From positions 372,001 to 436,000 of the forward strand of contig NW_020289987.1 in assembly GCF_003144245.1 (NCBI RefSeq): a DNA stretch of 64,000 nucleotides, read 5' to 3'. The stretch is from Jaminaea rosea. Taxonomy: Eukaryota > Basidiomycota > Exobasidiomycetes > Microstromatales. The translations under genes were made by a program, and so were the position numbers. The notes beneath the pieces are model-generated. The model was not told the DNA's origin. It ran no database searches and saw only the letters and a program-made list of their open reading frames with translations. This document shows, one piece after another, positions 15,732-60,624 of this stretch (positions are counted from its first letter, which is position 1; each line of letters starts with the position of its first letter).

Positions 15732-15888
15732 ATACTGAGGAAGAAAGTGAATGACTAGAAGGAAAGGAAAGCGCCGCGCAAGTCGCAATCAAGTCCTTCC
15801 GCCGGAAGACGAGAAAGTCGAGGCGAGGCGGAGGCGAAGCTGCAAAGTGGATTGGCGTCATCTTCCACTCCATCTTCATTGCGCAACA
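15732..15888. promoter_or_regulatory. 157-bp bidirectional promoter between eIF2B gamma and delta
   Basis: The whole space between the two start codons is 157 bp. It contains CTTCCGCCGGAAG at 15796-15808, an inverted repeat of CTTCCG around one central base, placed near the middle. ATTGG (inverted CCAAT) lies at 15851-15855, directly followed by CGTCA. Which factors bind these is unknown. Confidence 0.7.
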
Positions 15889-17526
15889 ATGTCAGCGCCC
15901 AAAGACGCAGCAGCTTCGGCCTCCTCCTCCTCCTCAGCGCCCAAAGACGGTGCGGCTCCCTCCGCTAGCCTATCATCTAAGGACGCCAAGGCTGCGGCAA
16001 AGGCAGCAAAGGCAGCCAAGAGGGCTGCTGCCAAGGGCCTTGCCGTTGGAGAGAGGCAGCATCCTCCCAAGAATGAGGCAGGGACAACAGCTGGCCAACA
16101 AGCAGCTGCTGCTGGTGGACAGGCGACCCATCAGGGGCGAGGGCCAAAGGAATCGTCTTCAGCAGCTGGCGCGGCATCGGCGTCGTCATCAGCTCCAGCT
16201 TCGAGCGGCGCAGCAGCTGCCACTCCTTCTCAGACTCTTGCTTCGCTCGCCTCAACCAACGCCTCCCTCCTTCAGCCTACCCAAACCGCAGCAGCAGGTC
16301 CGTCCTCATCCACTGGAACTCTCTCCTCACACGACCTCATTACCACCGTCCACCCTCCCTCGACCTCCCACTCGACACGCTCCACTCTCCTCACGACGTC
16401 CCTCACCCGCTCACTCCACCCGTCAATCCTTCAACTACAACAACACCTCGCGTCCCACACCTTGCTGGGCTCTTCAGCTCGAGCCATTGCCACCTTGGCC
16501 GCTCTGAGAGACTTCATTGCTGACTATAAGACACCGCGAGGTGCGGTGCTTAATCGTGACTTGGTAGGGAAATTGGGAGCACAGATTGGCGGTATCACCG
16601 CTGCTAGGCCTTTAGGTACGAGTGCCGGCAATGCTGTCAGGTATCTCAAGTACGAGATCGGAGTCGTGCCTGCGGACATGGGCGAGGACGAGGTGAGAGC
16701 GCAAGTGGGGAGCTGTAGCTCGCTCGCTAGCGGATACTGACCTGCCCATCCCTCACCTTCTCGCACCCAGGCGAAGAACCACCTCATCTCCCGAATCGAC
16801 CACTTTGTTCGCGATCGCATCGTCCTCGCCTCTCGAGTCATCTCATCTCACATATCCTCCAAACTCCGTTCACACGGAGACGTGGTAGTCACCTTTGCCC
16901 GCTCCTCAGTCGTAGAGCGTTGTCTCCTCGATGCGTGGCAAGTCGAAGGCAAGAGATTCGAGGTCATCTGCGTCTCGGGTGAGACCTTCGACGAAGGGCC
17001 TAGGATGGCAGAAGCGCTGCTGAGCAAGGGGATCCCGACTAGCTGTGTGCCGCTTACGGCCTTGGGGAGCGTTATGCCGCGAGCGAGCCTAGTGCTGCTG
17101 GGTACGGCCAGTCTCCTCGCCGACGGGGCGTTGTACTCGAGGGCGGGGACAGCTACCGTCGCTATGGTGGCGAACAGGAGGAAGGTCCCTGTCATCGTGT
17201 GTTGTGAGACGTACAAGTTTAGTGAGAGGGTGAGGCTCGAAGGGGTAGGAGGCAACGAAAGGGGTGAGTAGCGCGACGTCATTGCCCGCCAGATAGCCAA
17301 GCTGACCATCTTCTTCTCCTATTCTCACGCGCCAACAGCCGACGGTCACGACGATGACTTGGAGGACGGTTCCTCGACCCCGTCCAACCTCACGAAGCTC
17401 AACCTCGTCTACGACCTCACGCCCGCAAAGTACATCACCGCTGTAGCGTCCGAGGTCGGGCTCAGTGGGCCAGAGAGTGTGGCCATCTTGCTACGAGACT
17501 ACAAGAGCATCTTGTTCGGCAGCTAG
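15889..17526 (+). CDS. GCD2: eIF2B subunit delta (GCD2)
   Basis: Three exons (15889-16692, 16771-17263, 17339-17526) with 78- and 75-bp introns give 494 aa. The first ~140 residues are Ala/Ser/Lys-rich and disordered, as in delta subunits. The rest is the IF-2B alpha/beta/delta fold: a helical part with AIATLAALRDFIADYKTP, then GNAVRYLKYEI, then the Rossmann-like part with VVVTFARSSVVERCLLDAW, VSGETFDEGPRMAEAL, ALGSVMPRASLVLLGTASLL and VPVIVCCETYKF. It is a regulatory subunit of the eIF2 exchange factor, whose alpha/beta/delta core senses phosphorylated eIF2 alpha. It shares a promoter with gamma. Confidence 0.95.
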
Positions 17527-21100: not shown

Positions 21101-21594
21101 GATGCAAGTTGAGCAGAACCAGCGCTTGATGATCCAATGAGCCAAGGCATCGGGCCACATGTTGGAGTCGCGACCGATGAAGACGGGAAAGCCTCGCCTT
21201 GCGACCGACTCCCACGATACGAGAAGCGGCGTGTGGCAGCCGTGACAGAAGGCTTGAATGACGCCGAAGAGTTGGCAGATGGCTGTGGCATGAGGCTTGA
21301 GGGTGACACCGAGAGACTGGGCCCGTTGTCGCCAGTAAGTCTCTCCCTGGTAGCGAGCGCGAGGGGCAGGATGGTCAATGTGAGGCTAGGGCTTGAAGGA
21401 GGCGGATCTGTGTTGGCATTTACCAATAAGCTGTGCAGTCGCGAATTGCATACGCTCAGGCAGAAGACGTCTTGGGGGTAAGCCATCGAACAGACTTGAA
21501 GCAGCAGGTCGTCGGAGAGGAGCATGAGCGGCGAGGTGATAGACGGCGTAGAGCACAGGCGCGAACCCCTGATAGTGGGAGGCGTGAGCGCCAT
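18113..21594 (-). CDS. Large F-box-like protein with CxxC pairs and a charged helical domain
   Basis: Two exons (21594-21424 and 21346-18113) with a 77-bp intron give 1134 aa. Residues ~17-57 resemble an F-box (SPLMLLSDDLLLQVCSMAYP, then LSVCNSRLHSLL), suggesting an SCF ubiquitin-ligase substrate receptor. Next comes a compact region with two CxxC pairs (Cys91/94 and Cys135/138) and many aromatic residues that could bind zinc. From ~475 to ~590 there is a highly charged Glu/Arg/Lys/Ala helix ending in a basic KKKRTTPSRKRKAKR patch that could be a nuclear localisation signal. The C-terminal third is Ser/Gln-rich and disordered. Fungal F-box proteins of this layout are common, but the substrate is unknown. 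Confidence 0.75.
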
Positions 21595-37598: not shown

Positions 37599-38281
37599 GC
37601 TGGATGAGTGAGAATGGGGACGTCGGGATGGAGTGAGAAAAGGGGCAGAGAGTGAGGTGCCGAGTCAGGAAAGAAGTTGCCAAGAGAGAGATGCTACACT
37701 CGCGGCAACCGGCCATCGCTCCGTTGAACCTGTCTGCACGGACGGGCCGACGAGGCCGATTCGCTTCAAGGCTGTGCCGACCACGTGGAGGATGAGCATC
37801 CTTGGTTGGCTCCAAGCTCAGGGCAGCCTCACCTTCTCGAGAAGTCAGCCATCACTCGCAAATACTAGCACATCTGCAATGCCGTCGGATCCTTTGTATT
37901 GCCTCCAGCTTTCGACATAAAGGTTCAACATCCTTTTGTTCGTGAGATGGGCTCAAGGGACCAGCTGACGCCCAGACGTTTCGGCAACGCTAGGCAGCCT
38001 TGCTTTGTCCCAATCCGAGACGCGCTGCGCCACGGCGCCAGGGAACAAGGCAATGACTGAGACGTCAGCATGCTTTGTGCTCGAGGGCATCGTGACGAGA
38101 CGATACGATCAAAGACATATGATCAAGCCCAATAGATCCTTCTTGAACATCATACTACACCAGACAGCAACGAGACTCTCTCAGCCTCCTTACCACTTCT
38201 CATCATCGACCGGCAGGCCCGCATCACCACTTTTCTCTGCCCTTTGACAAGCCCCAGGGCCATCTCAGCAACATCGTCGCG
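37599..38281. promoter_or_regulatory. Divergent promoter, Bbc1-like / PalI-like genes
   Basis: 683 bp between start codons that point apart. No supported coding sequence; no specific site called. Confidence 0.5.
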
Positions 38282-40804
38282 ATGCTTGACCCGACCGCGT
38301 CCAAGCCATCTCGTCGTCCTTGGCTTCCACTCTTGCAGCCTCTTATACTCCTCAGCTGCTTCTTTCTCACACTCATCGTATTCTCTTGCCCAGACCCGCT
38401 TAGCCCCAGTAGTGGGATAACGCTCTTGACTGTGCGACCGTACAATATCTCAGCAGCAGCCGCTAGCTCCTCCGACCTGGACGGCTCAGGTAACAAGACT
38501 TCGTCGGCTGGTTCGACGATCACCTTCGGTGGCGCAAACGCTACGGCCACGACTCTGCCCGCGAATGCGACGGAGCCTACAGCTCTTGCCACCTCGTCTT
38601 CCAGCGAGAACAGTGTCACAGCTTCAGCGGCCTCGACACCTACCGTGGACCCTTCATCTGCAAACAATCGCACCCTCGCAGCGCAGACATCCATCGCTGC
38701 TCCGGCACAGGCCGCAAGCACTCAACCGCAAGGTCAAACAGCAGACAAGAGATCTTCTCATGTCAATGAACCGCGAGCTGAGATTCAGCCGCTGATGTCC
38801 AACTCCACCACCTCACGCGGCCCGACCCTAGTCAGCTTTGAACGAGTGCCCGAATCCAACGGCACCAACGAAAGCAACTCCCCCCTTGCCTCACCTTTCA
38901 CTCCTAGCACTCCCCTCCTCACAGGCGAGGCTCTGTCTTTAATCGAGCTCAAGATCTCCCCTCTCGGATCATGTTTCCGCACCTGGTCTGGCGCAAGAAG
39001 CTGCACGCCCGCCTCCCTCCGGCCTACGTACGATTCCAGCCACCTGACGATGAAGGCGCTCGGAGGGTACGATACGAAGGGCTTGCCCAGCACGATCAAG
39101 ACGACCCCAATCCTCCTCGTGGTAGTGGTCAGTCTACTTGGTTCGCTCTCTCTATCCTCGACCTTGGGTGCATCGCTCCGTGTCTGGCCAGGCGCCACCT
39201 TCGGCCAGCCGCTCCTTCAAGGCGGTGCAGCTCAGCGTGCGTGGGCAAGTACGCAACGCGTAGCCCTCTGGCTGCGTTTGGGGGTGGCCCTCCTTCTCCT
39301 CGGTACTGCAGTCAGCATGCGCCTCGTAGTCAGCAAAGCCGCCTACGCATTCAATGCCTCGAATGCAGCGCGCACCCTCAACACGGCCTACCTCACACCG
39401 GAAGCGATGGCCCTCCCTGGCGCTGGTCAACAGGTGGGCCTCCAGGCTGTGACGGGTCGAGCTTTTGGTTTGCTATGGGCTAGCGTGGTACTGCTGCTTG
39501 CGGAGTTCTGGTGGGAGAGAAGGAGGCTGAGGATGGAACAGGCCATCGCCGTTGCGAGAGCGGATCTCGAGGCTGCTTGGGGTCGAGATGCGGCTGTTGC
39601 GATGAACAATCTTGGCCGAGACGACGTGAAGCGGCAGAAGAGTACGAAGATCGTCAATATGCCACCCAAGCAGGACGAAGAGACTTGGTCTGACGACGGC
39701 TACGAGCAAAGCTCTGAGGCAGCCAAGCAGCAGCAACCGGGCTTCTTCTGGCCCGCCACCACGACTCCCCACGCGCCACCTTACGTGGCGCGTAAGGCCG
39801 TGCCGAGCTACAAGGGCGGGCTTGCGCCTGTGCTGGGCCCGCTCTTCAAACCTGCTCCCGCAGCCGCTCGCGCCATGGATCTCAAATTGCGAGGAGCTAC
39901 CGCTGCTGATGGGCAAGGAGGAGGTGCAGTCTACTACATCCAGGGCAATGCCCCTTGTGCTGCTCCTGCGCAACGTGTAGTGACGCGTACGATCGAGAAG
40001 GGGCAAAATCACCATTACCATAACTATCAACAACTCCAGCCGCAGCTCGCACCAACGCTCTCGCGCAAGGACTCCTACTCTTCTTCCTCGTACGCCGCCC
40101 CATCTCTTGTGGGCTCGACTCGCAGCTGCCACCCCTACCAGCCGGCCTACCCACCTCAGCAGCAACAACACCTCCACCCCTCAGCAGCAGCAGGCATCAT
40201 GCCTTACGAAAGCACGGCGAGCGGGCTCTCTACGCCACCTTGGGCCAGCACCTCCGGTCACTCACAGCAGCAGCAACAGCGTGGCCCTCATCCTCTTGTC
40301 TATCACGCTGCCGCGGCAAGCAGTGACGCCCTCCCTGCGTACGTAGCTGAGCCCCAGCCGGGAGCGCCTTTTGGACAGTACCATCGCCACGGGAAGACAG
40401 ATGGCGACTACGATGAGGACGCAGAAAGGTGGCACCGTAAGCTTCGAGCCGCGGGTATCGAGCATCCGCTCGCACGAGCGGCCAGTGTTGACTCGCCCCG
40501 CGGCCTTGCCTTTACGGTGAAGCCAATCGGCAGGGCAGAGCAGTATCATCACCAAGGCGACGAGCATCCGATTCAGCGCAGTAACAGCCTCACGGGCCTC
40601 GCAGATGGCACGACTCGTCGTGAGGGTGCCGCGTTTCCCAGCTGGAAGACGCACGAGGCTTTCGAGCTTCAGGCTGCCCCTGCTCCCAGGACTCAGCAGC
40701 AGAGGGGCCGACACGGGAGGAGCAACTCTGTCTCATCGGCTAACTCAATGGGAATGCGATCCGTCGCGGGTATGGGGATTGGGTTGCGATATGTGCGCTC
40801 TTGA
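38282..40804 (+). CDS. PalI/Rim9-like plasma-membrane protein
   Basis: A single exon of 840 aa. It starts with a hydrophobic segment (about residues 17-37, LLQPLILLSCFFLTLIVFS) and a ~230-residue Ser/Thr-rich part with many N-glycosylation sequons. A Cys-containing segment (GSCFRTWSGARSC) precedes three more membrane helices at about 273-295, 331-350 and 393-411. The remaining ~430 residues are a cytoplasmic tail rich in Tyr, Gln, His and Pro. One helix, an outer loop with a cysteine pair, three helices and a long tail is the plan of the SUR7/PalI family, whose PalI/Rim9 members act in ambient-pH signalling. The match is topological rather than by strong motifs. Confidence 0.6.
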   Translation: MLDPTASKPSRRPWLPLLQPLILLSCFFLTLIVFSCPDPLSPSSGITLLTVRPYNISAAAASSSDLDGSGNKTSSAGSTITFGGANATATTLPANATEPTALATSSSSENSVTASAASTPTVDPSSANNRTLAAQTSIAAPAQAASTQPQGQTADKRSSHVNEPRAEIQPLMSNSTTSRGPTLVSFERVPESNGTNESNSPLASPFTPSTPLLTGEALSLIELKISPLGSCFRTWSGARSCTPASLRPTYDSSHLTMKALGGYDTKGLPSTIKTTPILLVVVVSLLGSLSLSSTLGASLRVWPGATFGQPLLQGGAAQRAWASTQRVALWLRLGVALLLLGTAVSMRLVVSKAAYAFNASNAARTLNTAYLTPEAMALPGAGQQVGLQAVTGRAFGLLWASVVLLLAEFWWERRRLRMEQAIAVARADLEAAWGRDAAVAMNNLGRDDVKRQKSTKIVNMPPKQDEETWSDDGYEQSSEAAKQQQPGFFWPATTTPHAPPYVARKAVPSYKGGLAPVLGPLFKPAPAAARAMDLKLRGATAADGQGGGAVYYIQGNAPCAAPAQRVVTRTIEKGQNHHYHNYQQLQPQLAPTLSRKDSYSSSSYAAPSLVGSTRSCHPYQPAYPPQQQQHLHPSAAAGIMPYESTASGLSTPPWASTSGHSQQQQQRGPHPLVYHAAAASSDALPAYVAEPQPGAPFGQYHRHGKTDGDYDEDAERWHRKLRAAGIEHPLARAASVDSPRGLAFTVKPIGRAEQYHHQGDEHPIQRSNSLTGLADGTTRREGAAFPSWKTHEAFELQAAPAPRTQQQRGRHGRSNSVSSANSMGMRSVAGMGIGLRYVRS

Positions 40805-41811: not shown

Positions 41812-42425
41812 TGTTGCGCTGAATGCAATGGTGATGGTGAGGATGAGGAGGAGAGAAAGAAAGATTAGAGTGTGACCGTGCGAGGGGCGCCTGGGCGGAT
41901 GGGCGGGCGGACGGGCTTGGCGAGGGTCCACCGCATTTCAGATGCGGGCAGCGGGGCAATGACACAAGGGCCGAGACAGGCGCAGCGCAGATGCGCTGCG
42001 TGTTGGTTTCGACTGAGGTGGAGCGGAGCGAGCCAAAGTCAAGTCAAACAGAGCTTGTCTTGGGGCGTTGCGCTCACGAGACCAAAACAGGCTACGACGT
42101 AGGGGCAGCCGAGCAACAGCGCATCGTTCGGGCCATCGCGACCATCCATGTTAGCATGCAGGCGTCGCCCATGAAGCTGTCAGCAGCTGTATGGATTGCT
42201 TGAGCGATGCAAGGCTATCGTCTTCAATGAATGTGCAGGATGAAGAGATGCAGGCACACAACAAGAGCAGACCAAAGAGGCTGACAATCTTGGTGGTGCA
42301 TCCCGGCGCAGCGACCTCTGCGCACTCCTCCTGGCCTTGCTTTGTTCAGACTTCTTGCTTGCCACGGTCTGAACTTGCTCATGTCACTGGCCTGCTCTCG
42401 TCTTCCAATCTTCCCATCGCAATTC
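41812..42425. other. Intergenic region between TspO and the unknown family cluster
   Basis: 614 bp holding the TspO promoter and the 3' flank of the next minus-strand gene. No further family copy or fragment is visible here. Confidence 0.5.
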
Positions 42426-44138
42426 TCAAGGCAAGCCTCCTCTCCCTAACTGACCCGTCACGAAGCCGGCCTTCCCCTTCGGCCAGACACCGTACATCAG
42501 CCCGTCCCTCCAATTCGCTTCGTTCCTGTCGGTGACGAGCAAGATGATCTCCTGCGGTCCACCATCAGGCAGCGGATCAACCTTCAGTCGTCCCCGGCCT
42601 GCGCTTCCGCTTTCATTGCGGGAAGAGCCAGCTCCTGCTGCCTTGCCATTGTGCCCGCCCAGCTGAGGGTAGCGAAGATACTCTTCCGAATAACCAGGCA
42701 AGACAAACTCGGACCATCCACCGCCACAGTTTTCCAGGGGCAGACGAGCTCCACCGTCTCGCAGCCGGGCGGCAATACCGGCAGTGAGATCCCCCGCGGG
42801 CTTTGAGACGTATTGGTGGCAATAGAGGAGACGATCTTTGTCAGTGCTGTCGACTGTGACGGCCTCAGCGATGATCTTGAAGAGCTTCTCCCACTCCTGG
42901 TTGACTTGAGCGGCGCATGGGTTGTAAATGCGACGCTTCTGGTTCCTTGCCTCGACGTGAAGCTCGTAGCGGTTGAGAACGAAGGAGGCTTCGGGGCTGC
43001 AAGCCATGGGCTGATATTTGGCCGTGAACAGTCTCGAAGCGATGGGATGAAGCTTGACGCGCGCGTTGATGCCATCGTCGAAGGGCTGAGGCGAGATGTG
43101 CTCTTGAACCAAGGTGAGCGTCCTGCCGCAGACTGCCAGGCAGACCTTGCCGTCAGCTATGCGGCAGGGCCAGCCGGTGGTGGCGAAAGCGTAGCGGATC
43201 TGCTTGCGCTGCTCATGGTAAAGGGATGCCTCGCGTGTGATGGTGTAGGGCTCTTCCTTACCACTGGCGGGTTTAGAGCGCGAGGACAGGTGACCGCACT
43301 CTTTGACAAAGTAGATTAAGTCTTCCTGCTTGATGCGAGAGACAATGCGAACCCAGTTGGTCCTTGGTGGGGCCATTGTTGTATCTTGAGAGCTTTCTTC
43401 CCAGTCGACAAGGATGGAGTGACCTTTGGTCAAAGCTTCGTAGGCGCTGTCGCTGCCGACGGGTAGCTGTGCTCTGAGGTCAGGGTCTTTGAGGGCGTCG
43501 GCAAGATACTTGTTGCGAACAGAGATCATTGAGCCGTCCATGTTGAGGAGTCCCGTTCCTGAAGGTGAAGAAGATACGTGAGTTGCACTGAGATTGTACA
43601 CAGCATCGTCTCCAGCGCAATTGACAGCTTGCTCACCTGCTGGAGCTACTGAGATACTGCGGCGTATGGGCTCGACTGTCATGTCAAGGGAGGGTAAATT
43701 CGGTGATGGCTGATGAGTGACGCTCTCGGTAGACTGAGCTGATTGGGTCTTTTGCTCCGACCGGCTTTCGAAGCCCATGCGATCGTACATGGCCCTCAAT
43801 TGATTCGCCGTCTCCTTCGCATGATCGTAGATTTGGCGTTTGACCTCGAGGTTGAAGAGTTGAGTCTCGCCGGGGCGAGGTCTGCCGGCCGGATTGACGA
43901 ACATGAGTATCTCCACTGCTCTTGCGATGAGAAATTTCGGAGGGACACCGGTAATTGTGAGCTCAACGGCCCTTGAAGGGAGGTCACAACCGGTGGCACG
44001 CGCATCATCGGCAAGCCAGCGGCGGACTTCAGCGACAACGACGTCCCCCTCAGGTGGTGCAATGAAGGGGCCCGATGGGAACCTGACGCAGTACGTCATC
44101 CCGAAGAGGGTGGTGTGGTAGTCACTTGAGCATGACAT
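42426..44138 (-). CDS. Unknown family, paralogue A of three
   Basis: Probable exons 44138-43637 and 43558-42426, with a 78-bp intron (GTGAGC...TTCAG) that is a multiple of three and stop-free, so the protein is 544 aa spliced or 570 aa if the intron is kept. I do not recognise the family. The N-terminal ~110-residue module has YHTTLFGMTYC, then EVRRWL and GRPRPGETQLFNL; a variable linker follows; then a ~330-residue core with SVRNKYLADALKDPDLR, RIKQEDLIYFV, EECGHLSSR-like sequence, GWPCRIADGK, YQPMACSPEASFVLNRYEL, EWEKLFKIIAEAVTVD and RLRDGGARLPLENCGGGW. No signal peptide, membrane helix or catalytic motif is evident. It is the most divergent of the three and lies head-to-head with B. Confidence 0.8.
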   Translation of the reverse strand: MSCSSDYHTTLFGMTYCVRFPSGPFIAPPEGDVVVAEVRRWLADDARATGCDLPSRAVELTITGVPPKFLIARAVEILMFVNPAGRPRPGETQLFNLEVKRQIYDHAKETANQLRAMYDRMGFESRSEQKTQSAQSTESVTHQPSPNLPSLDMTVEPIRRSISVAPAGEQAVNCAGDDAVYNLSATHVSSSPSGTGLLNMDGSMISVRNKYLADALKDPDLRAQLPVGSDSAYEALTKGHSILVDWEESSQDTTMAPPRTNWVRIVSRIKQEDLIYFVKECGHLSSRSKPASGKEEPYTITREASLYHEQRKQIRYAFATTGWPCRIADGKVCLAVCGRTLTLVQEHISPQPFDDGINARVKLHPIASRLFTAKYQPMACSPEASFVLNRYELHVEARNQKRRIYNPCAAQVNQEWEKLFKIIAEAVTVDSTDKDRLLYCHQYVSKPAGDLTAGIAARLRDGGARLPLENCGGGWSEFVLPGYSEEYLRYPQLGGHNGKAAGAGSSRNESGSAGRGRLKVDPLPDGGPQEIILLVTDRNEANWRDGLMYGVWPKGKAGFVTGQLGRGGLP

Positions 44139-44416
44139 TGGACGAATGCAGGTGGGGCGTCGTGGATTGGGAGGCAACCTGTGCAGCGGTGTCGCAAGAC
44201 TTCATTAAGCGGCGCTTGCTCGGTCGAGGAACGCGTCGTTGGTCGCCCTCTACGGCTTCCCTTTCCGTCCCAGGTATGAGGCGCGGGACACAGCTCTCGT
44301 GCCTGGAGTCAGCGCCCGCTCGCTCGCAGACGACATCCGACTCATCAATGACCGTTGAGCGCAATCAAGGTTGCCTTCTCTCCTCCTCAACGACGACCAA
44401 CACCACGATCAGCACC
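44139..44416. promoter_or_regulatory. 278-bp divergent promoter between paralogues A and B
   Basis: Space between the homologous start codons (MSCSSD in A, MTCPGR in B). An in-frame upstream ATG for B at 44348 exists but lacks support from A or C. Confidence 0.6.
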
Positions 44417-46290
44417 ATGACGTGCCCAGGCCGCCACATTACCATTCGTGGCGTCACGTACTGCATCGTCCTCCCTCCCAGTAACACGACGCCTCCTCTC
44501 GATGGAGACTTTGTCACGGGTGAGGTCAGACGCTGGCTCGAGGCCAACGACTCTGGCCCCGGCTGCTCCTTTCCCGCGAACACTGAGCGTGTGACGCTAG
44601 ACTTCGACGAAGGTGAGGTGAGCTTCGACTACCCACCCTATTTTCTAGCCTTCGCTCCTCCCAAGGGAAAGCCTGCGCCCGAGCAGACCCAGTATTTTCG
44701 TCTTCCCATCGAGCGTCGTCCATCTCTAGAGAGTACGCTCAACGTGTCGAGGATGGTGGAGAAGATGTCGGCGACTCGACTGTTCGACAAGCAAAGTAGT
44801 GCCTCTACAGGCAGGTCAGCAGTGGACGGGGAAGCCGCTCACCAGGCCAACATGACAAGCACCGACGGCGAGAGTGAGTTGCGTTCTGTCATGTTGATGC
44901 TCAATCTGCTAAGGAATCACTCATTGTGCCCGCTCGCAGGCGTTCTCAAGTCCCCTTCGTCCCTTTCCACCATCAAGGAGAAGCGGCGCCAGATTGTCAT
45001 CGCTCCTGCTACGGTCAAAGCCAGCTCCACCGCCGACGTACAGACGGGCGAGAAGTACTCTAGCCAGACAGCTGCGCAGCAAAAGCTCTCTGTGCTCAAG
45101 GGTGAGTGAACTTGACGACGACCGGCGCAGCCTTCACTCGCACGCTGCTCACCTTCTTTCTTCGGTCCCTGTGTACTGTAGCATCGGGCGTCAAGCTTGG
45201 CGACTCGCCCCTCGTTGTCCGCAACAAGTACCTGATTGACGCCCTCAGGGACCCCAGCCTGAGAATTACGTCGCCCTGCGACATCGACACGGCCATCGAA
45301 GGCCTGACTCAAGGTCAAACCGTCACCATCGAATGGCAAGAGCCCCAAGATGACGAGCAGCAAGAAGTCGATGATCTCTGCTGGCTGCGCATTGTACCTC
45401 AGATCAAGGCAGACGACGCCATCTACTACGTCACCGAAAGTGGGCAGCTCTCGTGCCGCCCGCCTTTGCGAGTCCAGGAGCACAACACCATCACCCGCCC
45501 TGCAGTTCTCACCGAAGAGCAGCGCAAGGAGCTCCGAGACAAGCTCGTGACTGCAGGTTGCCCATGCCGGGTCGTGCAAGGCCAGATTGTAGTTGACCTC
45601 CCCAACGGCAAGACGATCACTCTTGGCCAAGCTCATTTGCGCCCTAAGCCCCTCCAAACAGGCATCAATGGTCGTCTGAAGCTTCGCCGCCTGCGTTGCG
45701 GCTACAACGAGTTTGTCTGCCAGCCTATGGCTACGAGCCCTGAGGCCTCGTGGGTCATCCGTCGCTACGAGATCACCTTTGAGTACAAGTCCATCCGACG
45801 ACGCTATGAGCCCTTCGCTGCTGTCCTCGAAGCCCCTTGGGAGGCCCTCTTTTCTTTCTTGGCCGAAGCGATGACCGTCAATCTCACCAACAACGCAGAC
45901 GGTCGCCTTGTCTGCTGCAACCGCAAAGACACAGGCCCGGAGGCTGATCTCATCAAAGGCGTCTTCGTTCGTCTGTACGACGGGGGCACGCGAATCCCGC
46001 TGAAGAATGTCGGCGACGGCTGGGGTGAATACCACTTGCCAGGTACGGCGGCAGCGTACTCTCGTCGAGGCGTGTACAAGACGCTGCTGGGCATGAAGGA
46101 CCAGGGGCCGGACACAGAGAGGATCAAGGGGCCAGCGACGATGAGTAGCAACGCACCGCATGATATGCTTATGGATGCTAGGGACAGTAGCGAAACCGAT
46201 GTGATGGACGGGATGTGGTTTGCTGTCGTGCCAAGTGGAGTGCCAGCCCACACCACGCACAAGATGTCTCCCATCCTCCATTCCTTTTGA
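44417..46290 (+). CDS. Unknown family, paralogue B of three
   Basis: Three exons (44417-44873, 44940-45101, 45182-46290) with 66- and 80-bp introns, both phase 1, give 575 aa. The first intron is a multiple of three and stop-free. Same plan as its neighbours: MTCPGRHITIRGVTYC start, EVRRWLEANDSGPGC, KGKPAPEQTQYFRL; linker with KRRQIVIAPA; then VVRNKYLIDALRDPSLR, VEWQEP-like IEWQEP, WLRIVPQIKADDAIYYVTES, GCPCRVVQGQIVVDL, CQPMATSPEASWVIRRYE, AEAMTVNLTNNADGRLVCC and RLYDGGTRIPLKNVGDGW. The start is fixed by alignment with A and C. No known domain recognised. Cytosolic or nuclear location is expected because no targeting signal is seen. Confidence 0.85.
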
Positions 46291-46772
46291 GCACTGTAGC
46301 AGCGGTACATGTGTGGGCGGGAGAGAAGTCTGGAGACAGTGAGACCAAGGAGGTGGGAGCCGGCAGGGAGAGGGGCGCTTGGAGAGCAGCGGCACATGAC
46401 ATGCTCACATCCTCCGGCGGCGATCAGCGTTGAGCGTGGCATCCATTTGAGGTCGATCTCAACGTCTCAAGTTCAGGCAGATCCAATCCCAATCTAAATT
46501 TCTTGACAAGCTTTGTACTCGCAGCATGGCCTGAATTGCAAGTCGCCTGCTTCTGTCTCCCTTGCACTGTGCGTTGGCCTGATCATGGTCGCAACGGGCC
46601 TCTGCTATACGCCTTTGCGTTCCTCAGAGAGCGGGCAAGCGGCAGTCGTGTGCCTGAAGTCTCCGCTTGTGTCTCCCAGCCATGTCGTTCGCCTGCTCTT
46701 TTCGGTAAGTCTGGGCTGATCGATCTTGCCTATCAAGACCACACCATCAATCCACCACGTTTGGCTGACAAG
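46291..46772. other. Intergenic region between paralogues B and C
   Basis: 482 bp holding the 3' flank of B and the promoter of C. I see no remnant of another copy and no transposon ends that would explain the duplication. Confidence 0.5.
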
Positions 46773-48596
46773 ATGTCCTGCACTGGTCCACACACGACCG
46801 TCCGTGGCGTGCAGTACTGCATCCTTCTACCTCAGATCCCTTTATCATCCAGTGGCAGCGACATGGTCTTGGCTCAAGTCCGTCGTTGGCTGGAGGATAC
46901 CTCAAGCGTCGCTTGTCTCTCTCCACCCGATACTCAACAGCTCTGCTGGGACGTCGAGAACTTCACCGTGTCTCTCAATTGTGACCCCCTCTACGTCACC
47001 TTTGCACCACCCAAAGGTTGGCCAGCGCCGGGCGAGACGGACTTCTTCCAATTGATGCTTCACCGCCAACACATGGCGCAAGTGTTCGGGCCTGACTACA
47101 AGGAGACCTTGAGAGAGCACTTGAAGGCAACGCAGTCATCGAAAGGCGAAGCGAATGATACTGTGGCGAAGCCTGCCCCTGGAAAGGCAGGCACGGCAGC
47201 TGAGCTGCCCAAGATGGAAAGCCAGAACAAGGGTGAGTCTCGATGCGCAACAGATCCACTCACATGAGAGTGACTGACGTGGATACGCTTGCTCATCCCA
47301 GAAGAGCGCCGCCAAATCCTCATCGCTCCGGCAGACGCCAGAGCCGACCAAAGTGGGGACGTAGAAATGGTAGACGACAACTACAAGGGTACAAGTGAGC
47401 GTTCTGAGCAGCAAATGACTTCGTATACACTCACTGAATGTCTCTGCTCTCTCTCAACCGCATTGATAGGCGTCCTGAAGCTTCTCATTGACGGCTCCCT
47501 CGTGCTGGGCAACAAGTACCTGATCGATGCACTCAAGGACCCTGATCTCAAGTACTCCACTTCACACAGCGCCGATAACGCCCTCGAGGCTATCCAACAA
47601 GGCTACAAGATTGTTGTTGAATGGCAAGAGCCTCAGGAGGACGGCGGTGAAGATATCCCATCTGACACTGAGTGGCTTCGCATCATCCCTCGAACCAAGC
47701 CAGAGGATACGGTCTATTTTGTCACCGAGGATGGCCACCTCTCATCTTCCTCCTCTGGAGACCGTTCGGAAGTCCGTGACGAGTACAACACCATTGATCG
47801 ACCCGCCGTCCTTTTCGAGTCGGAGCGCAGGGAGCTTCAGGCCGCGATCACGGGCGAAGGATGGCCATGCAAAGTCGAACAGAACAAGGTTGTTGTCGAG
47901 CTCTTGGGCCAGACGCTCCACCTGAGCCAACAGAATATCCAGCCTCAACCGATTGTAGACGCCGCCGCTGGACGCATCAAGGTTCGCCGCTTGAAAGGTA
48001 GGGCCAGCGACGGCGCTGCATGTCAGCCAATGTCGTGCAGCTCGGAAGCCTCGTGGGTCTTGCACCGTTACGAGCTAGTCATCGAGCTCGAAGGCAATGC
48101 TGAGCAACTTCGACTCTACATGCCCTTCGCGATCCAAGTTGACACCGAATGGGAGCGCTTGCTCTCCCCGTTCGCCGAAGCTCTGACGGTAGACTTGCTC
48201 CACAAAGAGGACGGTCGCCTTGTCTACTACAAGCAGCGTGACTCCGGCACGCAAGCTGAGCTGCTTCGTGGCATTCACGTCCGCATCCGAGAAGGAGGAG
48301 CACGCTGCCCTCTCACGACTACGGAGGATGGCTACTGGCAGTTCGTCCTGCCTGGCGGACAAGACAAGTCGATTGGTGGGATCACGGAGCCGCATGGCTT
48401 TAAGTCTCACGATCCCATGGCCGCCTTCACTGGGTTGAGGATCAAAGGCCCACCGGAGAAGATGATCGAGCCGCATGACGTGCTGCTGACAGGGAACGAT
48501 AGTGCGGATGAGGTAGCATTCTGGGGCGGGGGCATCAGTTTTGACTTGGTGAGGCGGGGGAAAGCCCAGCCTAATTTCGACGTGAGGGTGTGCTAA
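46773..48596 (+). CDS. Unknown family, paralogue C of three
   Basis: Three exons (46773-47232, 47302-47394, 47470-48596) with 69- and 75-bp introns, both phase 1 and at the same places as in B, give 559 aa. Hallmarks: MSCTGPHTTVRGVQYC start, QVRRWLED, GWPAPGETDFFQL; linker with ERRQILIAPA; core with LGNKYLIDALKDPDLK, IVVEWQEPQED, WLRIIPRTKPEDTVYFVTED, GHLSSSSS, EGWPCKVEQNKVVVEL, CQPMSCSSEASWVLHRYEL, EWERLLSPFAEALTVDL, DGRLVYYKQRDSG and RIREGGARCPLTTTEDGYW. The second intron is a multiple of three without a stop. Function unknown. B and C look closer to each other than to A. Confidence 0.85.
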
Positions 48597-48961
48597 TGGA
48601 ACAGCCCTGATCGCTGGCGGGCAAGGCTGAGATGGGCCCGAGAAGCGCAATGCTTCGAGAATGAAAAGTTTCAAGCCAGCCGTAGTGTTCCGGCAATGCG
48701 ATGATCATCTCTTCGCCAACTAGGAGGAGGAGAATGAGAAAGAGAAAGAGAAAGGGGGGGTCCGACCTGACGCGTCTGTGCAGCGCATCCACCGGCGCGG
48801 TCCGACTGAGGCGCCGCACGACCAACGCACGACCAACGCACGACCAACGCACGACCAACCACCTCGGCTCCTTCCGATCTCCTCCATCTCGCCTCCCCGT
48901 CCATCTCTTCTATCTTCTCCTCTCCTACTACTTTATCCTTCTACTCGCCTCGCGCGCATCC
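48597..48961. promoter_or_regulatory. Promoter/leader of the LRR-CCCH gene
   Basis: 365 bp between paralogue C and the next start. It carries four 11-bp tandem repeats at 48815-48858. A frame continuous with the next gene opens at an ATG at 48701, giving 87 extra basic residues that run through the repeats; judged less likely than the start at 48962. Confidence 0.55.
48815..48858 (+). repeat. 11-bp tandem repeat CGCACGACCAA, 4 copies
   Basis: Four perfect head-to-tail copies, ending 103 bp before the LRR-CCCH start codon. The unit length is close to one helical turn of DNA, so equally phased binding sites are possible, though simple slippage is enough to explain it. Confidence 0.9.
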
Positions 48962-51900
48962 ATGTCGCAGGCAGTCAAGGAGGCCATAGCGCAGCGTCGA
49001 GCGGCGCTTGCGCAGGCGCAAAAGGCAGCCGCTGATTCTCCTCTGCCATCGCCAACCAAAAGCACCTTCGAGGGTGCGGACATTGTCCAGCGAACAGAGG
49101 AAGATCTCCTGTATCGTTCTACCTCTACTGCCCGCCTCAATCTCTCCTCTCGCCTTCCTGCCCTCACCTCTCTCCCTTCTGCCCTCTTCAGCCTCCTCGA
49201 TGGCGAGGCACCAGCCTGGTACCTCGAGTCAGAGCCAGACGAGTCGAAGCGTCGCCCCTGGTACGAACGCGAGGATCTGCGGGTTCTCTCTTGCGCCAAT
49301 AATGATCTCACCGGCACGTCCGATGAGCGAATGGGCGACTTCAGAGGTCTCGCGAGGCTCGAGCTGCAGAACAATGCCCTCACCTCAATACCTCGCACAA
49401 CCTTCCAACTCGTCAACCTCACGACCTTGAACCTCTCCAAGAACAAGTTCACCTCAATACCCTCATCTCTCCTTGCCCTCGACTCCCTGATTGAGCTGGA
49501 CGTCTCGCACAATGCCATTTCCCAGCTCTGGAGCGACGCAGAGGTCGACCAGGCTAGGCAGGATCGGCGTGAATGGGACGAGGAGAATGCAGACGAGGAA
49601 GGTGGGGTGTGGGCCGGCTTGATTGCGAGGACAGGCAGCCCAACTAAGCGTGAGCGCCCCGGCCCACCCAAGACGCAGCGACAGCGCAGTCAGCCTATGC
49701 GCTCGCTCAGGATCTTGAATCTTGCCAACAACAGGCTGGACGATGCGGCCTTGCACGCGGCGAGGGGGACATGGACTTGGCCACCCACTCTGACAGACTT
49801 GGACGTCAGCGACAATCGCTTCCGCTCTTCGCTGCCACTCAATACCTTCGGACGACTAAAGGACCTACGTCGCCTCTCGTTGGGCGGTAATGGCTTTGGC
49901 GACGTAGTTTTCTCCCTCGACGAGACTCGCGGGGACAGGCCTGAGACGACACCCTTCGGCGGAAGGGAGAAGCAGACATTTTTCCCAGCGCTGGTAGCGC
50001 TAGACCTTCAGAGATGCGAGATGGACGATCTGACGTCGCTGCAGGGCGTGTTTGAGACAGGTTGCGAAGGCAACATTGAGCAGCGCAAGCTTGTGAGGGT
50101 AAATGCGATGGCGAACGCCCAGGGCGAAGCTACTGAAGGCAACGAGGACGGCTCAAAGGTGCTCAGCGTAGTGCTAGAGGGCAATCCCCTGCGCGAAGAG
50201 ATGTACAAGAAGAAAAGAGGTGGCGCACGGCCTGTCAAGCCGGACACGACGAGCTCGGCAGAGGCAGCAGCTCCAGTTACATCAGCTCCCTTACACCAGC
50301 CAACGTCCGTACGCGCACCTACGGCTGCTTCATCAACATCGGCAGCGACCAGTGTGGCTCCTGCGCAAGCGTCACCCCGGAAAGAAGCCTGGGAGCTCGA
50401 AGCAGAGGCTGGCCTCTCGACTGAAGGAGGGCGTAGGAGAGCGAGGGCAGAAGCAGCAAGGAGGGAAAGAGAGGCGGCAGCTGGCGGCGCTGCCCCCTCA
50501 ACAACCTCCACAGCACCAACTGCGCCCCTTCACAACGGCAACCGCTCACAGGGCATCAACCGTACAGGGCTAAGCGACTGGGATGGAACTCCGGCCCCGT
50601 CTCCCCGCAGGAACCAGACCAACAACGCAAGAGGTGAGGAGCGTGAGCAGACGCGAAACGGAGTAGGGGCGTCAGGCAGCCGCACTACCAGCCTAGGCTC
50701 TACGCTCGCGAATGCGAAGCTCACAAAGCGGCAAAGCGAGGCGCTAGGACGAGTCCCGTGCAAATTCTTTCGCTCAGCGAACGGATGTTCTGCGGGGACA
50801 GCTTGTCCCTTCTCGCACACGCTGCCTGGTGAAGGTCGTAATGGCGGTGGCCCTGGTGGCGTCAATGGTGCAGGAGAGAATGGCGGCGGTGGCAAGGCCG
50901 TGTGCGAATTCTTCCTCAAGGGCAACTGCCGCTTCGGTCACAAGTGTGCTCTGGCGCACGTCAGGGAGGGAGAGCCTATGAGCGTGCGTGTCGTCGTGGC
51001 GTGGCGTGGCGTGGCGTGGCATGGCATGGTGGCTAGCGGTGCGGTCGTGCGAGCTCCAGGGTACGTTAGTGGCACGAAGAGCTGACACCGTCCTCCTCTT
51101 GCCCTCTTCGCGTGCACAGATGGATAGACATAACAAGAAGATGCAAGCAGCAGCACAACGGGCGGGTACGGCTGCTGCTGCGGGGGGTTTTCAGTCAGGA
51201 GGAGTAACAGGAGGAAATGCATCGTATCAACAGCAATCATCGTCATCTCAGCACTTCGCACCATACGCAATGCACAACAACAGTCAACAGCATCAGCATC
51301 AGCATCAGCATCCTCAGCCTTCCAGCCAGCATCAGCAAATCCCTTCCCTCAACCACAGCACAGCGCCCTGGCCACCCCGAGACGACTTTGCTTTCGGGCT
51401 TCCCGATGACATGCAAGGACCTCAGATCACGCAGCAGCAGCAGTACCGTGCCTCTCTTGCCCTGCCCACTCCCGATGTCGCACAAACCGCGCAGAGTTCT
51501 CAACCCTACGCTATCTCTCGACCAATGCCCTTCAGCTCAGGCTCTTTCGGGGCACGCGGAACTCCCCTCCAGAGCAATGGCTTAGGTACCAGCCCCTTTG
51601 GCACCAGCCCCTTCGGGCAGACGGTCTTCTTCTCCGGCTCTCACGATGATCGCAGTGCTACTGGTCTAGATGCTCCCTCCACAGTTTCCGGCTCCTTTGC
51701 GGCCCGCAACAAAGCTCACCGTGGTGGGGTCCAGAGCGCGCTCCACGACGATGACGACGACGACCATAATGGCGAGGACTTCCTACCCTCGAGCTTGTCG
51801 GACCTCTTGACCCCGGCAGAGCTGGAACGGAGGAGGAGAACGAGCTTCAATGCTCAAGGCCTTGCTGCGGGTAGCTTCGGGGCCTCTACGGCATTGACGC

Positions 51901-52748
51901 AGAGCATGCCTGCCGGTTACGGCCTCGATGAGGACGAAGAAGTAGTGGGTGGTGGGATCTGGCATGTGGGAGGGAATGCTAGGCAGAGGCCAGCGGCTAG
52001 GATGAGTGTGGGCGGGTACGAAGATGAGGACGAGGAGGGGTACGGCCTTGCGAGCGCTGGCATGGGCCCTACGGCTGCAGCAGCACGTCGCCGCGATTTA
52101 GACCGCCTCTCGCATCACCATAGCCCTGGTCAGAGCTTGCCAAAGGGTCTCGCCGCTGCCGGTTTAAGCCGACTACGCATATCAAGCGATGGACGTGGTG
52201 GCGCTACACCCTCTGAGCCAGTGCAAGCAGCCTCGCGCATTCCGTCATACTCGCACTCGCAAGCTCAAGTCCACGCATCTCCACATCGTCGTGCCCTTTC
52301 CAACGCGCAAGCAACGTCCTCGTCATCTTCGTTCAAGGCTGCTTCGCTCCTCACAGCCGACCTAGGCCCGATAGCGCCGTCCAGCTTGCACCCTCATCTG
52401 CCAGGTGGAGTGCTGGCTGCGAGGAGCGGGACGCCTTCAAAGGGTGGTGGCTGGGCGAGCGGATCGCCGCTGGGGGTCACACCTCCGCCGACTCAGCGTG
52501 AGGCCATCGCTATTGGTTCGATTTTGGTATCACCGCCCGCGGGCGAAGATAGAGGCATGGAAAAGGGCGGCATGGGAGGCAGAGGAAGGACTGGTGCGCC
52601 TTCCTTCCGAACAGCGAGCAAAGAGGGGCTCAGCGTGGGTGGTGGTGGTGGTGGTATTCGAGGTAATGCTGCTGGTAGCCCGCTAGCATTGCAGCCGCGT
52701 GATAGTGAGGATGATGCTGGTGAGGAGGGTGTCTTTGAGCTGGAGTAA
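48962..52748 (+). CDS. Leucine-rich-repeat protein with two C-terminal-side CCCH zinc fingers
   Basis: Two exons (48962-50983 and 51120-52748) with a 136-bp intron, phase 0, give 1216 aa. Residues ~106-405 contain leucine-rich repeats (LARLELQNNALTSIPRTTFQ, LTTLNLSKNKFTSIPSSLLA, LIELDVSHNAISQL, LRILNLANNRL, LTDLDVSDNRF). A disordered Ala/Ser/Thr-rich linker follows. Then come two CCCH fingers: Cys600 (CX8CX5CX3H, GRVPCKFFRSANGC...) and Cys648 (CX7CX5CX3H, CEFFLKGNCRFGHKCALAH), resembling the RNA-binding fingers of fungal Cps3-like proteins. Exon 2 is Gln/His/Ser/Gly-rich with a SPFGTSPFG repeat. One gene is inferred because LRR and fingers share an unbroken exon; two adjacent genes remain possible. 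Confidence 0.75.
50996..51030 (+). repeat. GTGGC pentamer array inside an intron
   Basis: Five perfect GTGGC copies (50996-51020) and two variants (ATGGC, ATGGT) lie 13 bp inside the intron of the LRR-CCCH gene, just after its donor. The array makes additional GT dinucleotides next to the donor. Confidence 0.9.
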
Positions 52749-56377: not shown

Positions 56378-59176
56378 TCAGCGAGGCAGCTCAAAGTCCA
56401 GCGCTGCCGTCTTCGTCGGCCACATCTCCTCCATCCACTGCTGGAACAGGCTCCACGTCTCCTCCTCGCCCTTGCCTGGAATGACGTCGTCATTGACACC
56501 AATGAAGGCCAAATTGTGCTGCCTCCTCTTGAGGCTGTCCAGAATCCTCTTCGCCCCCTTGGGCTCCTTGAGCATCTGGAAGTCCAAGGGCGCACCAGCG
56601 ATCGTGTAGGCGTAGCGTTGGATGAGGCGAGTGGCAAAGATACGGCGCGAGGCGAGGGAGGAACCCGTGTTGCGTGCGACCGACGAGAGTGAGAAGTCGC
56701 AGTCGTCCCAACGTGAGTCGAGGGGCAGGTGAGGCGTGGTCTGGTCTGCCTGCACGGGCGTGGCTACCGCGGGGAAGCGGGTGTCGGCAGAGGGGAGGAA
56801 GACGTCCAGGCCCTTCTTGCCTGAGCGGGCTACGAGGTATGTGAGGAGGAAGTCACCGCAGGCCGTGTTCTCAAAGGCCATGTGCCTGAAGAGAGCGATT
56901 GGGTCGTACGCCTTGTCAAAGGGCCAGCAGACGCGCCAGTTCATGATGGCAGCAGGCTGGTGAAGGTCGTGCTCCTTGGTTCCTGGCTCGGTGTGGAATG
57001 TGGGGAATTGATGGCCAGAGACCTTGTCGAAGCGAACACCAGCGAGGGCGTATCCATCCTGCGAAGAGAACTGGTACGTGCTCGCCCCCGGGCGGGGGAA
57101 GAGAGACGCATCAAAGGTCTCGTTGACATTCTTGCGAAGCATGCTGTCGCGCTGTGGGGTGTGGATAGGAATGTTGTCCTGCAGCCAGATGGGCTTGTAG
57201 TCGGTCTCATCTGCGTCGTATCCAAGATCGAAGAGAGCGCCCTTGAGCTCATCCGTGCTGTACTTGCCATCTCCATCAACGTCCAGCTTGGCGACGAACC
57301 AGGACCAAAGCAGGGCCTCACGGTGACGCTCGATCTGAAGGTTGTACGAGAGAAGGTGCGAGTTGGCACCTTGACCATCGCCGCGGAAACGACGGCCAAC
57401 GGTGCGCGCGAATTGGTCGCCCCAGAGCATACGGGCCTCGTCGACTAGCGGGCGAGAGTGAACCTTCTGCACGTGAATGATGTAGTGACGGTCACGCTTG
57501 CCGAAGCGCTGTGCCAGGAGGTAGGCAGAGTAGCGCATGCTGGGAAGCTCGCCCTTCATGATAGGCGGGTGCTCATAGGGGCCAATGACGAAGAAGCGAT
57601 TGATGTGCATGACGGTGCCATACAGCGGGGAGGTGAAGTCGCTGACGGATAGGTCGCGATTGCCGAGGAAGTGGTCATCGTTGCTGTAGAAGAAGTTCTC
57701 GCCCAGCCCAGGAACAAGAAGGCCGAGCGAGGCTTCAGCGGCGAGCGAGTTGAAGGTAGGGAGAACACGCAACTTGTGGGCGAGAGTCTCGGCCTCAGAA
57801 AGCGGCTCGGGTCGCGACTGCGTGATAGGATCGACGGAGTGCAGGTCGGCCGTGACTTGCCAATCATGGTGTACTTTGATCTTGGGCGGTGCGGCTCCCT
57901 CCTCGACATCCTGCTGGCGGGAAGCTTGACCGACCATGACACCGGGAGCGTCGACATCGAGCCACTGCGGGAGCTGCCCGTAGCGCATGAGGCCCGCCTC
58001 GATCTCGAGCACGTCACTGCGGCCGCTGCCGGGCACGAAGGCGACTTGAGCTCCAGAAGTGGCACGAACAGGCTCGACAGAGGGCGCGACATTGGCGGCC
58101 GTGGCGTCTGCCAGTGCATTCATCTCCGGCTTGCCGCTAGCCCAGAAGTCGGTAGTGATCAAGTGGCTAGTACGCAGCGAGTCGCCCAAAGCATTCTTGG
58201 CACTTCGCATACTGTATCGCAGCTCGTCGTGCTCGCGGAAGCGATTCTCGGAGTTTTGCAGCTTGAGCGTGTCGTCGCGACGAGCAAGGGCGTGGCCTTG
58301 CGCGTCTGAGCTTCGAGGCTCAGCGACGTTGGCGCGGTAGGGGTCCAGGGCGTAGAAGTTGCGAGCGGCGTGATGACGAGGGTCGGAGCCATTGACCCAG
58401 AACCAAAGACCGTCGATGGTGTTCTGCTGAGAGAGGTCAAGACCCGGCAGGATCTCGCCACGGGCGACCCACGCGTCGAGGTACTTGGCGTCTTCCGCCA
58501 GGAAGGGCTCGTGCATTTGCATCGTCTGAGGGCGACGGGCGAGTTGCATGACAGGCTGGCCCGATGCTCCGAGGGAGCCCTTGGCTGCGGTGCTCTTGGA
58601 TGAGTCTGATCCTGTAGGCCAGAAGAAGATGGTGCGGCCACCGGTGTCGCCATCGGCGTTGAGGTGTCGCTGCTCAAGGAGCATGAGGAAAATGGCGCCG
58701 CAGAGGAGGACGAGAAGGCCAAGCAGGAGGGTCACGGGTCGTGACGCGCCCACACGGAGAGTTGAGGAGGATGCTCGACGCAGTGAAAAGTCACGGAGTG
58801 ATCCGCGGCCCAGTCCAAACCCGCTGTCATGTCTACGTCGCCACAATGATGGCCTTCGCGCTCGCTGCCACCATGGCGTGGCGTTTGGGTCGTCAGAGTA
58901 CGGCGGTGGCACGCTCTCGACGTCGCGCGCAAAGGGCGTCGATTCGCTGGCATCATCATCGCCATCCTCGCATTCTTGCTTGTCCGAGTGGTACATTGAA
59001 GGAGTGGTGGGCGTGGGGGGTACCATGCCTCTCGAAGCCATGGCTGGTGTTGAAGAAGGTGAAGCCGTCATAGGAGTGGTCCAGCCAAAGGAAGGGCGGC
59101 GCTGAACAGAGGGGCGAGATGAAGGTGATTGAGAAGGAGATTGACCGCCGAATGGCAGTCGGAGATCGCCGCCCAT
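56378..59176 (-). CDS. Stealth-family sugar-phosphate transferase (Xpt1-like), Golgi type II membrane protein
   Basis: A single exon of 932 aa. A disordered cytoplasmic N terminus is followed by one membrane helix (about 148-168, TLLLGLLVLLCGAIFLMLLEQ-like), the topology of Golgi glycosyltransferases. The Stealth conserved regions appear in order: CR1 IDGLWFWVNGSD (~250-265), CR2 ENFFYSNDDHFLG then SVSDF (~495-515), CR3 HVQKVHSRPLVDEARMLW, and CR4 AFIGVNDDVIPG (~890). Between CR3 and CR4 is a canonical EF-hand, LDVDGDGKYSTDEL (~630), as in GlcNAc-1-phosphotransferase. The family transfers sugar-1-phosphate to glycans; in Cryptococcus, Xpt1 adds xylose phosphate to O-glycans. The donor sugar here is not determined. 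Confidence 0.93.
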   Translation of the reverse strand: MGGDLRLPFGGQSPSQSPSSRPSVQRRPSFGWTTPMTASPSSTPAMASRGMVPPTPTTPSMYHSDKQECEDGDDDASESTPFARDVESVPPPYSDDPNATPWWQRARRPSLWRRRHDSGFGLGRGSLRDFSLRRASSSTLRVGASRPVTLLLGLLVLLCGAIFLMLLEQRHLNADGDTGGRTIFFWPTGSDSSKSTAAKGSLGASGQPVMQLARRPQTMQMHEPFLAEDAKYLDAWVARGEILPGLDLSQQNTIDGLWFWVNGSDPRHHAARNFYALDPYRANVAEPRSSDAQGHALARRDDTLKLQNSENRFREHDELRYSMRSAKNALGDSLRTSHLITTDFWASGKPEMNALADATAANVAPSVEPVRATSGAQVAFVPGSGRSDVLEIEAGLMRYGQLPQWLDVDAPGVMVGQASRQQDVEEGAAPPKIKVHHDWQVTADLHSVDPITQSRPEPLSEAETLAHKLRVLPTFNSLAAEASLGLLVPGLGENFFYSNDDHFLGNRDLSVSDFTSPLYGTVMHINRFFVIGPYEHPPIMKGELPSMRYSAYLLAQRFGKRDRHYIIHVQKVHSRPLVDEARMLWGDQFARTVGRRFRGDGQGANSHLLSYNLQIERHREALLWSWFVAKLDVDGDGKYSTDELKGALFDLGYDADETDYKPIWLQDNIPIHTPQRDSMLRKNVNETFDASLFPRPGASTYQFSSQDGYALAGVRFDKVSGHQFPTFHTEPGTKEHDLHQPAAIMNWRVCWPFDKAYDPIALFRHMAFENTACGDFLLTYLVARSGKKGLDVFLPSADTRFPAVATPVQADQTTPHLPLDSRWDDCDFSLSSVARNTGSSLASRRIFATRLIQRYAYTIAGAPLDFQMLKEPKGAKRILDSLKRRQHNLAFIGVNDDVIPGKGEEETWSLFQQWMEEMWPTKTAALDFELPR

Positions 59177-60624
59177 GATTGATTAAAAGAGAGTGTTGGC
59201 GGTGTTGGCGGGGTGTGGCGATGCCGAACGGCGAGAAGCACAGCAACGGCAGGGAGGATGACCCGGCCGGATGGGTCAGTGGCGGTATCGATGAAGAGCA
59301 AGGGGATGAGAGAGAAGGAAACGATGAAATGGGATTTGATGGGGACCTTCATCGCCGTACTCGACGTCCATATAACTCTGGCTGGCCGAACTGGGATCAC
59401 AGCCTCCGCCGGACGCCATTGAGGGTCTGGTTGCCGGCTTCACAGTGCCAGTCGGACATGCAAAAAACAAGCTTTGAGTTGGCCATGGAGCCCTTTTGCG
59501 AGGCATGGCAACGACGCCTGCTCACACGAGCTTGCTCTCTCGCACCTCCTCACACGATAAGGATGAACCCTGTCGCAGGCCCTATTTCCCCCAGGCTACC
59601 CTGGTGCTGTCCATGATCACACGAGCGAGCAAGTTGAGGTTCCTGCGGCCTACGCTTGTCGCTTGGCTGCTGATGGCGGCGAGCATGACTTGACATGACA
59701 GGCCAAGGGGGCCATGTATGCGAGGCACGACTGTCGACGTGCATGCTCAATGCGGGTCGTGAGCGGTGCGTTGTGGCCGGCATCGTGTGAGTAGTCGAGA
59801 GAAGCCCGGAGGCTTCCGTGGGTGGGTAATTGAAGAGGCGCTTGCGGGGACTCAATAGGGCGGATCTCGATCCGTCGACTGGCAGTTGCTCTCTCTCCTC
59901 GCGTTCGCCGCACTCGAGGCAGGCTTGCGCGGCTTGCGTGTCTCGGCACGCATACACGTCGGTGGACGGGTGAATCGCGGGGTGCTGGCCGCTCAAAGCT
60001 AAGCTCAGGTGATTTTTTAGCTCGGCCCGCCCGTACAAGTCGAGGTCCTCGAGCTCTCAGTCGTACAAGGAGGCTTCGCTAAAGTTAACGTTGATATTGA
60101 GCATCAAAGTTGGGACCAAGTCGCGTGAGGCATGGCGAATGCGATGGCGATATTGACAAGCAGGACGACGGCGTGGACGCAAGCAGATCGACGAGGGAGC
60201 GAAAAGGCGCGGATTCCTCGAAAGGGGTAAGGGCCATGGTCTTGACCGAAGTGCAACCGTGAGCCACAGCATTAGCTAGAAAGTCGACCAGCCGGCATCC
60301 ATCACAGCCATGCAGCCGCAGCGGTCAATTCGCCCAGTGGCGTCGACGAGCAGCGGCATCGACGGTGATGGCGGTGAGGTGGGTGCCGCTGTACTGCTGC
60401 GCAGCCTGTGCTGTGCTTTCATCGGCCGCCGCGCCGCGTCTTGCCGTCCGTCGCATGGCTGCCAGTCCGCCCGCGCGTCTCAGCGACTGAGCTCTATCCG
60501 GCCTCCGCTCCTTCCTCTCCTTTTGATCTCCCTCTATCCCGTCTGAATGCTTTGAAACCCTCGCCGATCATCGACGTCGTACTCGTGTAGCTGTCAGCCG
60601 TCGTTTGTGGCTGTCGTCGCCAAG
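59177..60624. promoter_or_regulatory. Divergent promoter region, Stealth gene / HEI10-like gene
   Basis: 1448 bp between two start codons pointing apart, the longest gene-free stretch between recognised genes. No frame has family support and no RNA gene is recognised. I could not identify a meiosis-specific promoter element by eye. Confidence 0.5.

Follow-up and report, generated by a model that had tools for sequence, protein, structure and literature searches.

The 64-kb window, by which we mean the whole stretch of DNA analysed, has a G+C content of 58.8% and carries three neighbouring genes, here called A, B and C. Our gene models place them at the coordinates, on the strands and with the module order given by an earlier sequence-only reading, and all three are intact. 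The genes and their parts are as follows.

42426..44138, minus strand: gene A, 544 aa, exons 44138-43637 and 43558-42426 (gene model, alignment, intron phase)
43636-43559, minus strand: predicted intron of gene A, 78 bp, phase-1
44417..46290, plus strand: gene B, 575 aa, exons 44417-44873, 44940-45101 and 45182-46290 (gene model, alignment)
46773..48596, plus strand: gene C, 559 aa, exons 46773-47232, 47302-47394 and 47470-48596 (gene model, alignment)
43824..44138, minus strand: N-terminal module of A with the candidate metal site (invariant C, H, C, C) (alignment)
44417..44722, plus strand: N-terminal module of B (alignment)
46773..47078, plus strand: N-terminal module of C (alignment)
42429..43556, minus strand: core and C-terminal tail of A (alignment)
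45184..46287, plus strand: core and C-terminal tail of B, within one exon (alignment)
47472..48593, plus strand: core and C-terminal tail of C, within one exon (alignment)
44139..44416: interval between the start codons of A and B, 278 bp (gene models)

Genes A and B are divergent, while B and C stand in tandem. The 278 bp separating A from B could hold a putative shared promoter; a scan of this interval with bacterial promoter and terminator models, which are uninformative for a fungus, returned nothing. One intron is predicted in A and two each in B and C, all five phase-1 and 66-80 bp long. On account of these spliced genes we take the DNA to be eukaryotic, and nothing observed contradicts the mention of basidiomycetes in the earlier reading. 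The reading frame of A remains open across its predicted 78-bp intron (43559-43636), giving an open frame of 570 aa, and as this frame runs through a probable intron, protein A is probably 544 aa long rather than 570.

The three proteins are homologous from end to end, with identities of 33.4% for A-B, 34.3% for A-C and 38.3% for B-C over 567-596 aligned columns. Local alignment scores of 716-891 stand far above those of shuffled sequences, whose highest value in 50 shufflings of each pair was 59, which bears out the proposal that A, B and C form a paralogous triplet. The sequence motifs quoted in that proposal are for the most part common to all three proteins, namely YC, VRRWL, RR.I..APA, NKYL.DAL.DP.L, PC, QPM..S.EAS.V..RYE and GG.R.PL, but several are not invariant: B has GCPC for GWPC and PEQT for PGET, A has YQPM for CQPM and VDWEES for VEWQEP, and the Y preceding HTT occurs in A only. 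On these identities, and with three sequences that lack an outgroup for rooting, the suggestion that A is clearly the more diverged member is weak. No fourth copy was found in the window by a profile search of its ORFs, taken from stop to stop with a minimum of 25 aa, the next match having an E value of 1.3. To speak of an undescribed system, as the sequence-only reading did, is too strong, as nothing beyond shared descent ties the three genes together.

A phase-1 intron precedes the NKYL motif in each gene, 14 residues upstream in A and 13 in B and C. These three introns fall in alignment columns 211, 223 and 219, and because their distance to NKYL is similar across this gapped stretch, they are likely equivalent. 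The presence of a phase-1 intron near NKYL in every gene suggests a single intron-containing ancestor. Pairwise Nei-Gojobori estimates gave dN of 0.56-0.66 and dS of 1.73-1.80 (pS about 0.68), so that synonymous change per site is about threefold higher than non-synonymous change; with dS near saturation, the dS values and the dN/dS ratios of about 0.31-0.38 are rough. Different codons are used at about half of the identical amino acids (94/194, 105/190 and 114/220). With dN well below a near-saturated dS, we read the proteins as being under constraint and the duplications as dating far back. The locus is an old tandem triplet derived from one gene, with intact frames and protein-level constraint on all three copies. 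Given the near-saturated synonymous divergence, orthologues of every copy may well exist in related species, and long-standing, possibly widely shared copies are at least as likely as a lineage-specific family. Tandemly duplicated orphan gene families are a general class in fungi, and A, B and C resemble them as adjacent, intact paralogues with similar intron positions and no known domain, but differ from this class by their old divergence (dS about 1.7-1.8).

Conservation is distributed unevenly along the proteins. The N-terminal module of about 105 residues has 27 invariant columns, although only two invariant positions fall within columns 61-90 when the whole proteins are aligned. In the linker (columns 121-180), 0-1 columns per 30 are invariant; the RR.I..APA segment comes next, the core (columns 181-510) has 6-11 per 30, and the tail past column 510 has 1-4 per bin. 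In the N-terminal module, Cys is invariant at columns 3, 17 and 51 and His at column 8, with the spacing C-x3/4-H-x8-C-x31-33-C. The modules of A and B contain three Cys each, all of them invariant, and that of C has two additional Cys. In the core a single Cys and no His is invariant, along with many polar or charged residues (D, E, R, K, W, Y). As the invariant C, H, C and C of the N-terminal module contrast with so few in the core, it is possible that the module carries a putative metal site, perhaps for zinc.

Two further statements of the earlier reading concern localization, and we assessed them by hydropathy, a crude measure. The maximum 19-residue hydropathy of 1.14-1.28 is in line with the stated lack of a membrane helix. 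Near the N-termini, the best 8-residue means are 1.6 for A, 2.1 for B and 1.71 for C; by this measure no clear signal peptide is present, although B is borderline and may bear a sorting signal at its N-terminus. Internal repeats were not found by hhalign among five segments compared in ten pairs (best E 0.03 at a probability of 1.7%).

That the proteins hold no recognisable domain is supported, as no significant match was obtained in Pfam, NCBIfam, PHROGs, PADLOC or the PDB sequences. With whole proteins, Pfam-A gave no match up to E 10 for A and C, and the sole match of B, Telomere_reg-2, had an E value of 0.21 and 12.4 bits against a cut-off of 23.6, so that no curated cut-off was reached. 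Nineteen fragments (10 + 9) yielded several sub-threshold Pfam matches, none of them convincing. The best was DUF2835 (PF11197), matching B fragments near GCPCRV...LRPKPL with E values of 0.015 (51 aa) and 0.041 (79 aa), where scores of 15.7 and 14.3 bits fall short of the cut-off, 25; neither the corresponding fragments of A and C nor the whole proteins matched it, and we regard it as a chance hit. The best matches elsewhere came from one of the three members each, with E values of 0.19 in NCBIfam (VirB5), 0.21 in PHROGs (phrog_6979) and 0.04 among the PADLOC anti-phage models (JukA, not significant). Profile searches against the PDB gave best E values of 0.22 for the whole alignment, 0.21 for the C-terminal core piece and 1.2 for the N-terminal core piece, none of them significant. 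For the N-terminal module, 9 of the 11 chains listed were the complex I subunit NDUFA12 (6g2j_q among them), with a best E of 0.05. This top match is likewise not significant and is absent from the Pfam scans; in the alignment, both invariant Cys within the matching region stand opposite Thr in NDUFA12, and we attribute the resemblance to chance.

Stretches of the core were considered to resemble the sequence patterns of PB1-like (beta-grasp), SH3-like and transthyretin-like domains. None of these readings was adopted, as no such Pfam family appeared up to E 10 for nine core fragments of 37-81 aa, in a scan where the HMMER filters drop most matches above about 0.1; a distant fold relation of the core to these domains may nevertheless exist. 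Beyond the domain libraries, pattern scans combined with tblastn gave 76, 76 and 165 candidate stretches in IMG/VR viral contigs and 218 and 226 in bacterial and archaeal genomes (one per species), none of which was confirmed as a relative, and tblastn of plasmids with the core of C only returned no match. Such a result is expected for a fungal gene and says little. Among the literature titles and abstract openings searched, none dealt with such a family.

AlphaFold models were poor, with at most three sequences per alignment position. The core of C was predicted with a pLDDT of 38.3 and a pTM of 0.25 (302/374 residues below pLDDT 50), and the frame of A with the probable intron read through with a pLDDT of 45.5 and a pTM of 0.34 (342/570 below 50). 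In the numbering of this unspliced frame, residues 301-370 reach ten-residue block means of 59-86 and comprise a helix (308-321) followed by strands up to residue 365, so that the central part of the core probably forms a compact alpha-beta unit. With the low-confidence A model, Foldseek gave no match at E<=0.001. Up to E 10, 59 PDB and 151 BFVD matches were obtained with best E values of 1.1 (salicylate synthase) and 0.059, respectively, and these were rejected on query-normalised TM-scores of at most 0.10 (best 50 of 59 and best 50 of 151) and on the low confidence of the model. The absence of a Foldseek match is no evidence for a new fold.

The four 2-kb bins covering the genes (42001-50000) have G+C fractions of 0.560-0.594 within a window range of 0.560-0.611, the bin at 46001-48000 being the lowest of the window. 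Repeats of at least 20 bp reported between 40 and 50 kb were confined to the paralogous exons, a tandemly repeated 11-bp unit and one short tract. The window holds 44 ORFs with a length of 150 aa or more. Five of these lie on the triplet, one of them antisense to B, and 30 of the remaining 39 were scanned; 17/30 have a Pfam match at E<=0.001 and 15/30 reach the curated cut-off. The description of the neighbours as conserved genes is supported in part, several of the matched ORFs being housekeeping genes. Lipoyl synthase, arginyl-tRNA synthetase, a syntaxin-like SNARE and an L7Ae-type ribosomal protein are found among them, as are a DnaJ-X protein, BAG, PHAF1 and an AIM3/BBC1 C-terminal domain. 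Just beyond the triplet, a TspO/MBR protein adjoins A and a leucine-rich repeat protein with CCCH fingers adjoins C. These neighbours do not suggest a gene cluster serving a common pathway.

Our preferred, if tentative, explanation is that the family consists of soluble binding proteins built from two modules, the three copies having been retained by division of labour. The protein would reside in the cytosol or nucleus, with an N-terminal module, perhaps stabilised by zinc through C-x3/4-H-x8-C-x31-33-C, connected through the variable linker to a larger core that mixes beta and alpha structure. Most likely it would bind a partner, whether a protein or a nucleic acid, and not act as a catalyst, and the three copies may have been kept because they bind different partners or serve under different conditions. 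A related reading, to which we give even weight for and against, is that the triplet is old and widely conserved, each gene having its own orthologue in related basidiomycetes, and that the family is simply uncharacterised. The near-saturated synonymous divergence and the conserved genes nearby speak for it, whereas no relative was found, in searches that covered viral, bacterial/archaeal and plasmid collections only. This reading is compatible with the binding-protein explanation and contradicts the local lineage expansion claimed earlier. It seems quite unlikely that the genes represent an undescribed two-module fungal family in the full sense, with a new zinc-binding N-terminal domain, a new core fold and an ancient triplet of copies with distinct intracellular jobs. 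If the core fold did prove new, the triplet would found a new domain family and offer a clean example of tandem copies retained over a long time; an uncharacterised conserved fungal family, the more likely outcome, would add one more fungal protein group without a function. The gene models and the alignment make the family easy to search and test.

The many invariant polar residues of the core and its length of about 330 aa, a usual enzyme size, would also suit an enzyme too diverged for recognition, with A, B and C as isozymes. We consider this unlikely, as the core lacks an invariant His, has a single invariant Cys and is without a significant match in Pfam, NCBIfam or the PDB. A tandem array of diverged copies without a known domain is what one might expect of a fungal family devoted to recognition or conflict, whether self/non-self or antiviral, that expands through tandem duplication. 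Against this stand invariant residues along most of the length, the variable parts being columns 61-90, columns 121-180 and the tail after column 510, as well as dN well below dS and the lack of a significant anti-phage defence match (JukA, as given above, for one of three members), which make such a role very unlikely. Almost no weight can be given to a reading as mobile-element genes that were domesticated or have decayed: the close grouping of several unrecognised gene copies would fit, but the frames are intact and interrupted by predicted introns, no inverted repeats of at least 20 bp occur at 40-50 kb, no Pfam transposon family is matched and the G+C content over the genes stays within the range of the window.

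Other features of the window were recorded alongside. The ORF next to C (48686-51082, plus strand) is a single frame with leucine-rich repeats and two CCCH zinc fingers and an ATG at 48962, upstream of which the 11-bp unit CGCACGACCAA occurs in four head-to-tail copies (48815-48858). Three long ORFs have no Pfam match at E<=0.001, namely 11622-13418 (plus strand, 599 aa), 18116-21385 (minus strand, 1090 aa) and 38147-40801 (plus strand, 885 aa). At Rfam gathering scores, nothing was detected in the 64-kb window. An ORF at 56381-59182 on the minus strand contains Stealth_CR2, at 40.5 bits just past its cut-off of 39.4, together with a CR1 match below threshold; we take Stealth proteins to be sugar-phosphate transferases. 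Adjacent ORFs on opposite strands at 13621-16737 show sub-threshold eIF2B matches (LbH_EIF2B with 46.9 bits against 54 and IF-2B with 21.8 against 22.4) and may represent a neighbouring pair of eIF2B subunit genes. Finally, a tRNA-Val (CAC) gene lies at 52445-52538 on the plus strand, whose length of 94 bp makes an intron possible.
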